In this document: piece after piece, positions 1,934-59,091 of the stretch
How positions within the stretch are numbered: the first letter of the stretch is position 1
Layout: every line of letters begins with the position of its first letter
Origin: Tannerellaceae bacterium
GTDB lineage: Bacteria; Bacteroidota; Bacteroidia; Bacteroidales; Tannerellaceae
Direction of reading: 5' to 3'
Assembly (NCBI GenBank): GCA_031288175.1
Contig: JAITRW010000040.1
Location: forward strand, 62,001-126,000
Length of the DNA: 64,000 nt
The notes under the pieces: generated by a model
Told to the model about the DNA's origin: nothing
Seen by the model: the letters and a program-made list of their open reading frames with translations, nothing else
Databases searched by the model: none
Translations under genes and position numbers: made by a program

Positions 1934-4074
<2,141 letters not shown>

Positions 4075-54024: not shown

Positions 54025-56916
54025 CTAACGAATGACCATAATTTTGGTGACTACACGCTGGGCGGCATTTTCCGTGGCAGCGAAGACAAGATAAACGCCC
54101 GTAGTGACGGGATCTCCCGACGGACGAGTACAATTCCAGAAAAACTGACCGCCCACAGCCTTACCTTCTGCTACAGGATGGCCATTGAAGTCGGTAATAC
54201 GGACGTAGGAATCTTGCACAAGGTTAGTAACGGTGACATATCCCTGATAATTGGGCCGGACAGGGTTGGGAAAGGCCGTAACTTCGGCATAGTCGGCTTT
54301 GCCACGAGTGACACCGGCGGTATAAGACACTATTCCTTTGTCGGTACCGACAAAGACTTCTCCCGTTGTAGGATGGATAGCGATACTTTGGACGAAGTCG
54401 GACGGTAAAGGGGAATTTGCGGTAGTAAAATGGGCAATAGTTTCTTTACCATCCTCAGAGACAAGTATAAGGCCGGAACTTTGCGTACCCAACCATTTAC
54501 GGTTGCCGCCATCTACGGCAATGGCACGTACATTTTCCCCATCCAGGAAATAAGCGAGCTTACCCTCTTCATCCGTTCGGACAATACGATTGGCATACAT
54601 GTGCGAAGGATCCGTCACTGCGTAAGAGGGTGTCGGGCAAATCAGCGGACCCAGGCTAGTACCGAGCCAAATCCGGCCGTTTAAGTCCTCCGCCATGCAG
54701 TAATAGGCGGAAGGGTCGGTAACAAGCTGCCCTTCGGAAGTAGGAGAGGAATGGAAAGAGGAAAAGAAGTTAGCTATGTCATCGGAAGGGTCATCAATCG
54801 TTCCACGATCGTCCACGACAAGGATACCGGCATCCGTCCTTCCGGGGATATTGATCCATTTGTGATTATTACGGGTAAGAAGAATTTTATCCATAATCAC
54901 GCAGGCAGGCAAACCGTCATAAGAAAGGGAAAGCCATTCCCCGTTCGGTTTCATTACCTTGATGGCATGTAGATCTCCGTCGCCGTTGGTTACCCAAAGA
55001 TTATTGTTTTGGTCAAAAGCCAGCCCATCGATGCGGACATACCTATGCCTTTCGGGATCTGAGGCAGGGACGAAGGACTCTAAGTTAGAATTCGTATAGT
55101 CATACCTCTTAACGAATTCATTATTGAGGAACTCAAAGACACCGTCTCCCCACGTACCGACAAAACAATGGTTTTCGTTTAAGGGATCGACCGCTACGGC
55201 GGTAGCTTCGGCAAAGGCATGTCCGGCTTGCCCGGAGATAGCCTGTTCATCGAAATTATACCAGGAAGAACCGTCATAGGTCATAAAAGTAGCGTCCCTG
55301 AAAGTTCGGAAAGTTCCCGCGCCGTCTCCGGTAACGAACAGTTTGTCTTTATGGAAGGTCATAAAAGCCGCATGATCGCGCTTAGGCCCGTTGAGACGAA
55401 TACCGGAGATAAGCGTTTCGTACCGATCGTCTACAGACTTGAGCGCCTTCAGTCCCTCCGTGCCTGCGGCTATCCAATAAACGTCGGAAACGGCGGAGAG
55501 ATCGTACGCCGAGCGGACAGGTATAGTCCGGTAGTCTTTCACGGAGGTATATACCCTCATATCACCCCAACGGCGCACGATCAGTTTGTCGTTTTTATAG
55601 AATATATCCCACACGTCGTCTACGTGCGGTCCGTTGGTCGTTAGGCCATCGTCATATAATTTATTGTCTTCTCCGAGGATCATAATATAATCCGCTAAAA
55701 AGAATGCTTTCTTTATCGGAATATCTATAAGAAAGGAAAGGCGTTGCCAATTAGCTTTATCTAGTAAATTACTTCTTTCATTGCCGATAAAGACTCCGGA
55801 ATCTGTAGCGGCAATCAGCGCATCGTCATTAAAATAAACGGACCGGGTGACGCCTATACGGTAAGTATCCATAATCTCTCGCTTACGGAGGTCGATAGCC
55901 ATGACCCCGAAGTTAGTGGCTAGGTAGACATAATCTCTATAAAAGAACAAGTCGTTGACCGTTTTATCCCGTATCCCTTGGCTATTCATCAGATGGGGAA
56001 TATTATATATCCCTTCCTTGGAAAGCAGGTCTATATTGCTATTCGTATAGAGAATGAAAAGAATATCAAGGCTATGGCTATATCCGATACGGCTAATGTA
56101 AGTATCACTTATCCCGTTCTCCTTGGAATAAAGGGTAACGCTCCGATCATTTTTCCCATAGGAATATAAAGCACCCGACGCACGATCCGAAATACCCGTA
56201 GCGGGATTGCGATCGAAGCCTGCCAACACGAACACTTCCTCCGGCGTTTCTTCCACCATGAACGTGGAGTGATAGGAAGGATACGTTTTCCAAATCGCAT
56301 CTTGCGCCCATGTCGGGAAAGAGACGTAAAGGAGGCAAGCTATGGCGCCCAGGCAGGCCAGAATCCTATCCATCTTACGCATAGCCTGCGCTCGATGGCT
56401 AATTTTATCCTTTATATCGGGGCCTAATTCGGCGAAGGTTTTATCATAGTCTTTGGGAATGAAGACAGCGTCATATCCGAATCCAAATAGTCCCCTTTTA
56501 TGTTGGGAAATGGTTCCTTCCACTATACCTTCGAAAAAATAACGTTGGTTTCTGACGATAAGCGATACCGCTATCTTGAAACGAGCGTTACGGTTATCCT
56601 TCCCTGCAAGGATACTCAACAGCTTATTCATATTAGCCTTATCGGTACCTTCAACAGAGTAACGTGCCGAACGCACTCCCGGCCTATTCCTTAAAACTTC
56701 TACCTCCAATCCGCTATCTTCGGCAAAACAATCTCTACCGCATTGACTGTATATTGCCTCTGCCTTCAAGCGTGCATTCTGTGCGAAAGTGACTCCTGTT
56801 TCAATGACGTTCTCTTTAAAGCCAATGTCATCTAAACTCAGCACATTCGTAAAAGGAAGCATCTTTCTTACCTCTTCCAATTTAAACCGGTTCCTGGTAG
56901 CGAACACTAGCTCCAT
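54025..56916 (-). CDS. RdgB-PorZ in-frame fusion: dITP/XTP pyrophosphatase followed by a T9SS PorZ-like beta-propeller protein
   Basis: One frame of 963 residues from ATG 56916. Residues 1 to about 180 are RdgB/HAM1, which hydrolyses dITP and XTP: FATRNRFKLEEV, EDSGLEVE, GFGYDAVFIP and SHRAQA. The normal RdgB C-terminus merges at MRKMDRILACLG into a signal peptide (ILACLGAIACLLYVSFPTWAQ). The rest (about 785 residues from ATG 56382) is PorZ-like: two beta-propellers (IWKTYPSYHSTF at the start) and a T9SS sorting domain (AFPNPVRPNYQGYV to KIMVIR). PorZ belongs to the PorU/V/Q/Z surface attachment complex. Internal initiation at ATG 56382 or 56373 would give a normal secreted PorZ (the P. gingivalis one is a similar size). 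The frame also runs back to ATG 57000 through heptad repeats. Confidence 0.85.
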   Translation of the reverse strand: MELVFATRNRFKLEEVRKMLPFTNVLSLDDIGFKENVIETGVTFAQNARLKAEAIYSQCGRDCFAEDSGLEVEVLRNRPGVRSARYSVEGTDKANMNKLLSILAGKDNRNARFKIAVSLIVRNQRYFFEGIVEGTISQHKRGLFGFGYDAVFIPKDYDKTFAELGPDIKDKISHRAQAMRKMDRILACLGAIACLLYVSFPTWAQDAIWKTYPSYHSTFMVEETPEEVFVLAGFDRNPATGISDRASGALYSYGKNDRSVTLYSKENGISDTYISRIGYSHSLDILFILYTNSNIDLLSKEGIYNIPHLMNSQGIRDKTVNDLFFYRDYVYLATNFGVMAIDLRKREIMDTYRIGVTRSVYFNDDALIAATDSGVFIGNERSNLLDKANWQRLSFLIDIPIKKAFFLADYIMILGEDNKLYDDGLTTNGPHVDDVWDIFYKNDKLIVRRWGDMRVYTSVKDYRTIPVRSAYDLSAVSDVYWIAAGTEGLKALKSVDDRYETLISGIRLNGPKRDHAAFMTFHKDKLFVTGDGAGTFRTFRDATFMTYDGSSWYNFDEQAISGQAGHAFAEATAVAVDPLNENHCFVGTWGDGVFEFLNNEFVKRYDYTNSNLESFVPASDPERHRYVRIDGLAFDQNNNLWVTNGDGDLHAIKVMKPNGEWLSLSYDGLPACVIMDKILLTRNNHKWINIPGRTDAGILVVDDRGTIDDPSDDIANFFSSFHSSPTSEGQLVTDPSAYYCMAEDLNGRIWLGTSLGPLICPTPSYAVTDPSHMYANRIVRTDEEGKLAYFLDGENVRAIAVDGGNRKWLGTQSSGLILVSEDGKETIAHFTTANSPLPSDFVQSIAIHPTTGEVFVGTDKGIVSYTAGVTRGKADYAEVTAFPNPVRPNYQGYVTVTNLVQDSYVRITDFNGHPVAEGKAVGGQFFWNCTRPSGDPVTTGVYLVFAATENAAQRVVTKIMVIR
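56371..56382 (-). other. Candidate internal start of PorZ inside the rdgB frame
   Basis: Two ATGs (56382 and 56373, minus strand) directly precede the hydrophobic segment of the PorZ signal peptide. Starting here gives a standard N-terminal signal peptide with Lys/Arg in front. Confidence 0.5.
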
Positions 56917-56928
56917 CCTTCTCGGTTT

Positions 56929-57285
56929 ACTTTCCGTCATTTCCATTTTACTTTCCGTTTTTAAAAAAATACTTTCCGGAATAAAGATAATACTTTCCAT
57001 GGTATCCGCAAAACTTCCCGTTATAAAAACAAAACCTTCCGGGGTATTCGTAAAACATTCCTCTCTTTCTGTAAAACCTTCCGGGGAAGTAAGGTTTAGT
57101 GTTTTGAAGACATCGCGGAAGGTTTTGCGGAAAGGGAGGAAAGATTTATAAACACCGTAGAAGGTTTTGCGAATACCCCGGAAGGTTTATCATACGTTCC
57201 GGAAGGAGTGCTACCTATCTCTGAAAGAGTGATTTACACCTCTGGAAGAGAGTTTTACGTCCCGGAAAGAGAGCCGGATATCCCG
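56929..57285. repeat. Array of seventeen 21-bp units, inverted at its centre
   Basis: Units are exactly 21 bp. Eight units (56929-57096) begin ACTTTCC or ACCTTCC on the plus strand, one divergent unit (57097-57117) forms the centre, and eight units (57118-57285) begin GAAGG or GAAAG, i.e. the inverse orientation. The segment 57160-57180 is complementary to 57040-57060 at 19 of 21 positions. The array begins at the base next to the Porin_10 stop codon and ends 12 bases before the rdgB ATG, filling the whole intergenic space. 21 bp is two helical turns and also seven codons. No spacers, no cas genes and no consensus promoter were seen. Confidence 0.9.
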
Positions 57286-59091
57286 TCAATCGTTGAAATG
57301 AACGAGGAGACCGAATTTGAAGACAAAGGGAGTTAGGGGATAATGAGGGAGAGAGAAATAATCGGGGCTGAGGAATAGGGAAGCAAGGTTATAGGTCGAA
57401 ATAAAAAACCGTGTCTGTTTAAGGTGAAAATTGGCGTAGGCGTTGACGAGCGGGAAATCGCCGACGGCTACCGGGGCGTCGTCGGCCTGGAGGCGGAAGG
57501 TCATCGTGGCCGGTTCGTAATAGGGCGCATCGTATCGGGAGAAGTAATGCACGTCAAAGCCGAGTTGAAGCGAAAGGACGGGTACCGGCTTAACGTCTAT
57601 ATAAGTATTGGAATAGGCACAGAGCAAGGGCAAGGGGAGTAGGCGATCCTTAGAGGCGTGTTGTACGATTATCTCACCGTCCCAACCGAAAATCCCGGCG
57701 CGGAAGGACTGTGCCAGGCGGGCGCAGAGGACTTGGATATTCCCCGTATATTGGTCGGGATAACCTGAGAAGCCTATATAGACGTGATTACGGATAGTAT
57801 GTATACCTGCGTTCAAGCGTGAACTCGTAGCGGCGATCCGGAGCGTTCCGCCGACATACGCTTGCCGTTCGTCGTCAAAGGCATTGTCCCACGCGAAATA
57901 CCGGGAACGATACCGGCGAAGGAAAAAGGCGGGAGTGACGTTCTTGAGGCAAGCCTCGGCAGAGAGGAACGCCTCCTTACCCCACAAAGGGAAGGCCGTA
58001 CGCATATCGCCGGTGAGGCGGAACTCCCCCAAGTCATCCCCCACAAGACAAACTTCGCCACGGGCATTGTAGGTAAGGAAACGGCCGCGACGCTTGGCCC
58101 ATTGGCCTCCTAGGTAGGTAGAAAATTCTTTGGCGTCCCGCATATCGGCCATCGCGTAACGCCGTCGCTCAAAGCGGACGAAAGCAGTGAGGCCGAATTT
58201 CACCCAATCTCTGAATCCCTCGACAAGGGAGAGGGAAAAAGTGTTGTGGATAGAAGACGAGGAGGGACGGTCGTGGAGGGCGGAATCGGACGAGGCATAT
58301 TTTTTAGGATAACAGGCATCCAGCGCGTCAAGGGAGGCGGTCGTAAAGTGACGACGGTCGGCGGTATAGGAAAAAGTGTGTCCCAGGCTCACTAGGGAAT
58401 GGTATTGCTGGGAAAAGTGGTATTGTTTCTCCCTCACGGTATTAAAGACGTCTTGCATGCGGACGGGAAAGGCTTTGGAATCTATCGTACGACGGCCATC
58501 CGTGAATCGGGAAGGGTCGGTAATATAGGTGTCATCGGTCAATCCGCCGTTTTCGGCAGTGATCAGGTAATAGTTGCTCACATAGCCGCGTGCCTGGTAT
58601 TTATCCGTGACATAGCTGCCGAATAAGCGGTAGCTCACCGACTTGTTCCCATTTGAGGGGTAATGTCCCCTACTATAAATATAGTCTGTCTCGCCTCCTA
58701 CATTGATACGTTTACCGAAGTTCCACGTGAGTAGGCCTTTTAGGCGTTCTTCCTTTTTCCTGTCCCCCGAATGGAAGGTGTAGGCTAATTGTGTATAGGG
58801 TATTTTCGTGTCAAAAAAGTAAGGCTTGCCTTGTAATGTATCGGAGTTGGTAATGAAGGAGGTAATGTAGTAGTCAAGAGGGTCGGCGAAAATGAAGTCA
58901 CGGCTTTCTTTCCTTTCGGAAAAGACCCTGTTGTGCATCGGCGAACCCATATTACCCAAATAACCGACTGCGATTCCCTGTCCCTCTACGAATGTACTGT
59001 TGGCAAAGTTAAGCCTCCCCGTATCCTGGGCCGTTATCTGTGTGACTATTGTCCATACGCCAAACAACGGTATCCATACCCTCTTCATCAT
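57286..59091 (-). CDS. Putative outer membrane porin (Porin_10-like)
   Basis: The 601-residue product starts with a signal peptide ending TQITAQ, and the mature part is a long run of amphipathic beta strands. GQGIAVGYLGNMGSPMHNR, then YYITSFITNSDTLQGKPYFF, and the closing FKFGLLVHF fit the Bacteroidota putative-porin family. It should form an outer membrane barrel of unknown substrate. Its start overlaps the end of folC (ATGA), so both are co-translated. The 21-bp array begins at the base after its stop codon, then rdgB-porZ follows on the same strand. Confidence 0.82.
   Translation of the reverse strand: MMKRVWIPLFGVWTIVTQITAQDTGRLNFANSTFVEGQGIAVGYLGNMGSPMHNRVFSERKESRDFIFADPLDYYITSFITNSDTLQGKPYFFDTKIPYTQLAYTFHSGDRKKEERLKGLLTWNFGKRINVGGETDYIYSRGHYPSNGNKSVSYRLFGSYVTDKYQARGYVSNYYLITAENGGLTDDTYITDPSRFTDGRRTIDSKAFPVRMQDVFNTVREKQYHFSQQYHSLVSLGHTFSYTADRRHFTTASLDALDACYPKKYASSDSALHDRPSSSSIHNTFSLSLVEGFRDWVKFGLTAFVRFERRRYAMADMRDAKEFSTYLGGQWAKRRGRFLTYNARGEVCLVGDDLGEFRLTGDMRTAFPLWGKEAFLSAEACLKNVTPAFFLRRYRSRYFAWDNAFDDERQAYVGGTLRIAATSSRLNAGIHTIRNHVYIGFSGYPDQYTGNIQVLCARLAQSFRAGIFGWDGEIIVQHASKDRLLPLPLLCAYSNTYIDVKPVPVLSLQLGFDVHYFSRYDAPYYEPATMTFRLQADDAPVAVGDFPLVNAYANFHLKQTRFFISTYNLASLFLSPDYFSLPHYPLTPFVFKFGLLVHFND

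Follow-up and report, generated by a model that had tools for sequence, protein, structure and literature searches.

The gap between a porin gene and rdgB in the window (the whole 64,000-nucleotide stretch of Tannerellaceae DNA analysed here) is filled by a real array of seventeen 21-bp units that inverts at its centre. The array is one of three dispersed copies in its own genome, in all of which the strand carrying GAAGG runs toward the following gene and the ordered last units are conserved. We tentatively read it, at somewhat less than even confidence, as a non-coding, intergenic, promoter-bearing minisatellite of the constant-period class of 20 to 24 nt, whose rdgB copy would have been joined head-to-head with a second array.

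Structure of the array between the porin gene and rdgB

The unit table divided the 357 bp into 17 units of 21 bp with no remainder, in agreement with the initial annotation. Autocorrelation gave an identity of 0.55 at lag 21 and 0.51 at lag 42, against a window background of 0.27, and lags 21, 42 and 63 at the array locus were the top three among lags 5 to 79 across the 64 kb. TRF, for its part, reported three overlapping arrays with a period of 21 or 42 bp at the same position. The orientation flip at the centre was also borne out, with eight left units on the minus strand and eight right units on the plus strand, the direction switching near 57095. The right edge of the array adjoins the porin stop codon (57286-57288), as described earlier, whereas the proposed contact with the rdgB start was only nearly exact, 12 bp remaining between the left edge and the ATG at 56916. 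That ATG is the homologous rdgB start; another one, at 57000, falls within the array. The rdgB frame is indeed open upstream of the gene, to about 57186.

Distinct unit kinds were recognized, namely A (EGFTERE-type), B (EGFTNTP-type) and the terminal units T1 and T2, which partly alternate to give a 42-bp dimer. Divergence among the units is about 45%, yet the 21-bp register is exact across all 17. The outer right units (57202-57285) are far more diverged from the family, mostly with 6 to 13 matches out of 21. An assembler misjoin at the array centre might underlie the inversion, although the two other two-armed arrays in the genome lower the probability of this.

The rdgB and porZ (type IX secretion) genes form a single open frame in the window, with no stop between them. 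A single frame also spans both genes in one relative (G013, L147), and there is an open frame of comparable length (958 aa) at rdgB in another (G064).

Table 1. Positions of the array, its parts and its neighbours in the window
Feature	Position	Strand	Basis
Head-to-head array of seventeen 21-bp units filling the porin-rdgB gap	56929..57285	.	Autocorrelation, unit table, TRF
Left arm; GAAGG strand is the rdgB strand; order A-B-C-D-T1-x-T2, ending at rdgB	56917..57081	-	Agreement of T1 and T2 with the sister arrays' last units
Terminal unit T1, GAAAGTATTATCTTTATTCCG	56977..56997	-	Unit comparison with C2 and C27
Promoter-like TTTG-N19-TATCTTTA, one -7 base off the consensus TTTG...TAnnTTTG	56982..57012	-	65 nt before the rdgB ATG
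Divergent centre, with TTTAGTGTTTTG at 57095-57106	57082..57117 (or 57076-57117)	.	Similarity to the 5' start of C2
Right arm, inverse; four typical units, then four diverged outer ones; reaches the porin stop	57118..57285	+	Unit table
rdgB-porZ open frame, Ham1 then PorZ beta-propeller	54025..57000	-	Domain match
Putative porin, Porin_10, complete to the last residue	57286..59091	-	PF14121, E 7e-164

Dispersed copies and a promoter-like end

A search of the array's own genome (an assembly of 1.60 Mb in 45 contigs, 77% complete) with the array as the query returned two sister arrays, C2:26662-26905 and C27:~3359-3640. Both are one-armed, and each lies upstream of a gene. A scan for periodicity at lags 18 to 26, covering the genome except for two contig tails of about 0.5 to 0.7 kb, gave hits outside ordinary genes and microsatellites that corresponded to the three arrays and to a second family described below. 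The core GAAGGTTTT is common to the three arrays, and units of kinds A, B, T1 and T2 are common to different loci. Between loci, T1 units agreed at 17 to 18 of 21 positions and T2 units at 15 to 16, and the order at the gene-proximal end was kept. The T1 of the window matched unit 10 of C2 at 18 positions and unit 11 of C27 at 17, the other units of C2 and C27 reaching at most 15. The 12-bp TTTAGTGTTTTG of the divergent centre recurs at the 5' start of C2, and the right arm resembled the sequence upstream of C2 (P 0.005) in an alignment that enters the repeat by 6 bp. Extra unit matches elsewhere in the genome had E values of 0.06 or worse and were taken as noise, and a reverse-oriented pair of degenerate units upstream of C2, judged by eye only, is not claimed.

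The GAAGG strand was directed at the next gene in the three loci, stopping at or near the gene start. The genes that follow are rdgB in the window, a gene for a 233-aa protein without known identity, and a HAD hydrolase gene, the last some tens of base pairs off.

Bacteroidetes promoters carry TTTG near -33 and TAnnTTTG at -7. In this genome TAnnTTTG was present in 172 of 568 upstream intergenic regions, compared with 35 in mononucleotide shuffles, at a median position of 48 nt before the ATG; since it is enriched upstream of genes, the signal is in use. The end of the C2 array contains a strict TTTG-N17-TATCTTTG located 40 nt before the ATG, and the base missed by the rdgB motif (Table 1) is the last one of the -7 element. 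Each of these two motifs occurred in 0.2 to 0.5% of the shuffles of its own stretch (0.5% for rdgB), the stretches having been picked after the fact. Inside the C27 array there was no promoter-like motif, TATATTTG sitting a few tens of base pairs beyond it. A promoter-like motif is thereby found in two of the three family copies, the promoter activity itself being a prediction; the evidence comes from three loci, a small number, and the motif was sought once the arrays were known.

Judging from the sequence, the array end would likely supply a predicted promoter to the next gene. The array may then be regarded as promoter-upstream DNA. Its last units would provide the following gene with a -33/-7 promoter in two of the three copies, while the upstream units, each of two helical turns, could line up repeated binding sites along one face of the DNA or form a spacer lengthened by slippage. 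The window copy would have become two-armed when a second array landed head-to-head with the rdgB array, at a porin-rdgB junction absent from the sampled relatives. This reading is supported by the position of all three arrays directly upstream of a gene, in one common polarity, by the match of T1 and T2 across loci beyond any other unit of the partner array, by the absence of a coding signature and of a strand bias in the wobble mismatches between the arms and, by analogy, by a published Bacteroidales minisatellite with promoter activity (PMC4596501). Counting against it, the right arm (57118-57285) has no promoter-like end and is aimed at the 3' end of the porin gene. Besides, the two-armed form occurs at three loci of two families, a hint that the inversion might be more than accidental.

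Curvature by phased A/T tracts was not exceptional, the array ranging from the 7th to the 98th percentile and its sisters from the 75th to the 97th.

Inverted arms and competing explanations

The second two-armed family of this genome, unrelated in sequence to the 21-bp array, is represented at C42:2283-2557 and C36:3943-4230. In both arrays TTATCCCTTCTCAGG-type units are followed by CCTCCCCAGGATAACG-type units, the two sets aligning as inverted arms: six units of ~24 bp and then about six inverted units of ~21 to 22 bp. One of them lies about 60 bp downstream of an AAA/DUF4143 gene; close to the other are an HTH gene and one that matches a phage capsid (SU10_MCP). With the window array, the two-armed loci amount to three, from two unrelated families, with roughly 6+6 or 8+8 units of 21 to 24 bp arranged head-to-head, and at each of them the best partner of the left arm is the right arm of that locus, those of the other loci pairing less well. 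Such arrays could make up a separate type of element within this lineage, in which fold-back copying or a dyad-symmetric protein-DNA structure would preserve the likeness of the arms as DNA, an idea that we consider improbable.

The same arms bear on the suggestion, made in the initial annotation, that the transcript folds into a long imperfect stem. For the window copy the stem is real: the whole gap folded as RNA with a z score of -4.5 on the gene strand and -6.9 on the other strand, as expected from arms that are inverted copies, and the duplex between the arms gave a z score of -11.3. The suggestion did not extend to the one-armed sisters C2 and C27, which showed no fold (z of -0.7 and -1.8). 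That the arms form a long imperfect hairpin, of RNA or DNA, after the porin gene, ending, protecting or separating the porin and rdgB transcripts, is described here as rather doubtful. It would agree with the arm-to-arm pairing of the two two-armed arrays of unrelated sequence (z of -7.1 and -4.1), with the preference of each left arm for its own right arm at the three loci and with the failure to find an ordinary intrinsic terminator in the porin-rdgB gap. However, the antisense strand yields the more stable fold at the window array, and G.U and A.C mismatches between the arms are balanced at the three loci (12:9, 8:7 and 6:7), so that selection on an RNA strand is not indicated. The RNA-hairpin reading is therefore weak, and inverted copying at the DNA level is a simpler account; DNA rearrangement or fold-back copying would more likely have produced the inverted arm than a selected RNA hairpin. 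No Rfam model scored above its gathering threshold, and the sub-threshold matches were far below it, seven of the eight being to eukaryotic microRNA models.

The strongest competitor of the promoter-bearing minisatellite, quite possible although on balance improbable, is a neutral satellite, in which a 21-bp unit multiplied by replication slippage and was copied in the inverse direction by template switching, the product surviving between genes with no function. The strong divergence of the units, the decay of the outer right ones, the confinement of the unit sequence to this genome among those sampled and the placement of related repeats of other genomes anywhere between genes are all in agreement with it. 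It does not easily accommodate terminal units that are conserved, order included, at three loci, a uniform polarity toward the next gene or the exact register over 17 units despite their divergence. A mobile MITE with an internal minisatellite, similar to BrickBuilt, would account for dispersed copies with conserved tail units and for the leader TTTAGTGTTTTG common to two copies, but terminal inverted repeats were found in no copy (P 0.11 to 0.65) and there was essentially no homology outside the repeats, so that we regard it as very unlikely.

Least probable of all is a protein-coding array, with EGFxxxP heptads translated either into small proteins or as extra N-terminal sequence of RdgB. 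The EGF frame contains one stop in 266 codons, compared with 4.6 expected from column shuffling (P 0.025), the array frame is in register with rdgB and with the gene after C2, and C27 holds a 93-aa ORF starting with ATG. Against this, frame +3 is depleted of stops as well (5 versus 11.7 expected), a stop precedes the C2 gene in the C2 frame, the rdgB genes of relatives have no N-terminal extension, and the C27 ORF has no Pfam match. Codon usage did not single out the EGF frame, and its pN/pS was not clearly lower: A units gave 0.61, versus 0.30 in frame +2, and B units gave 0.56, versus 0.64 to 0.81 in the other frames. Stops are mildly depleted in the open array frame, but the substitution pattern is not coding-like and lends no support to the heptads proposed in the initial annotation; a protein-coding role is unlikely.

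Known repeat classes and other genomes

The array is not a CRISPR, REP/BIME or IS, as initially stated; its units abut without spacers, and only a core of ~9 bp recurs. The wider statement that it fits no known type has to be corrected, since constant intergenic tandem repeats of 20 to 23 nt had been published (PMC8161180, citing J Bacteriol 2020), as had a promoter-active 23-nt minisatellite of P. gingivalis (PMC4596501). Subirana and Messeguer described intergenic tandem repeats of 20 to 21 nt (20 to 23 nt across bacteria), constant in size and species-specific in sequence (PMC8161180, PMC6749651), remarked on their length of two helical turns, as the initial annotation did for this array, and suggested nucleoid binding or small RNAs (PMC8161180). 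The array shares with that class the two-turn period, a short common core, the presence of several arrays per genome and an intergenic, probably non-coding nature. Its 17 units are of constant length, and three arrays of the family are present in its own genome, in agreement with a species-specific sequence. The order is head-to-tail within each arm and in both sisters, the window array as a whole running in opposite directions from its centre. Unlike the published repeats, the units are far more diverged, there is a central inversion, ordered terminal units are common to the arrays, and the arrays adjoin the starts of genes. Regularity was a requirement of the published search, and head-to-head arrays are not described in the available part of the paper (PMC8161180).

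BrickBuilt, reported by Klein et al. in Porphyromonas gingivalis, has 23-nt units, and its promoter activity was measured in E. coli (PMC4596501). Like the present family, it is an intergenic Bacteroidales tandem repeat without spacers and with dispersed copies. It differs in its unit, which is of another sequence, in its 19 copies and in its long non-repetitive leader and tail with terminal inverted repeats, such inverted repeats not being found in the window family. Its conserved leader and tail may have counterparts here in the 12 bp common to two copies and in the conserved tail units, which are repeat units themselves. The array fits the constant-period class except for its inversion and divergence, and would work in a BrickBuilt-like manner only if the promoter reading holds. 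What is new is the two-armed form and the promoter-like rdgB end, the repeat class being already described. Short constant-period intergenic repeats are scattered across bacteria, and this genome connects them with the starts of genes, in a constant direction and with an end that resembles a promoter. A vague repeat class becomes testable in this way, by comparing array length with the expression of the next gene and by looking for protein binding at 21-bp steps.

DNA searches found the array sequence in none of 40 relatives, and distant blastn searches of plasmids and phages gave no match. Among 396 genomes of the phylum, the core pair at spacings giving a period of 16 to 26 bp occurred only in the array's own genome, and always at 21 bp; a composition-matched control pattern gave no matches. 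The porin gene is next to rdgB in no sampled relative, which makes the junction look lineage-specific. One relative (G074; L159, 1000-1480) has an unrelated 42-bp (2 x 21) array that ends at the rdgB start, is in frame for 147 codons and has further copies elsewhere in that genome. Its similarities to the window array are 21-bp half units beginning GGAAG or similar, dispersal, one copy abutting rdgB and an open frame; it differs in sequence, in the high identity between units and in being one-armed. As far as we know, these arrays are unpublished.

A scan of a genome collection with the core pattern returned 24 stretches, about half of them chance pairs, many within ordinary genes. The rest were 21-bp arrays from Bacteroidota, Spirochaetaceae, Planktothrix and further taxa, and both orientations occurred together in none; because they were selected by the core, their kinship with the window array is not proven. 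Viral contigs yielded five single matches. Intergenic 21-bp arrays with GGAAGGTTTT cores and otherwise different bases are found in unrelated phyla: three lie on three contigs of a Dysgonamonadaceae-titled MAG (L116, L123 and L132), two are from Spirochaetaceae (L117 and L126), and one is on a Planktothrix plasmid (L119, 3229-3485). The array's own genome also has 21- or 42-bp repeats inside long open frames (L070 at 5550 and 7035, L085 at 1477 and L097 at 1989), which correspond to proline-rich and alanine-rich repeat proteins and are unrelated to the intergenic arrays.
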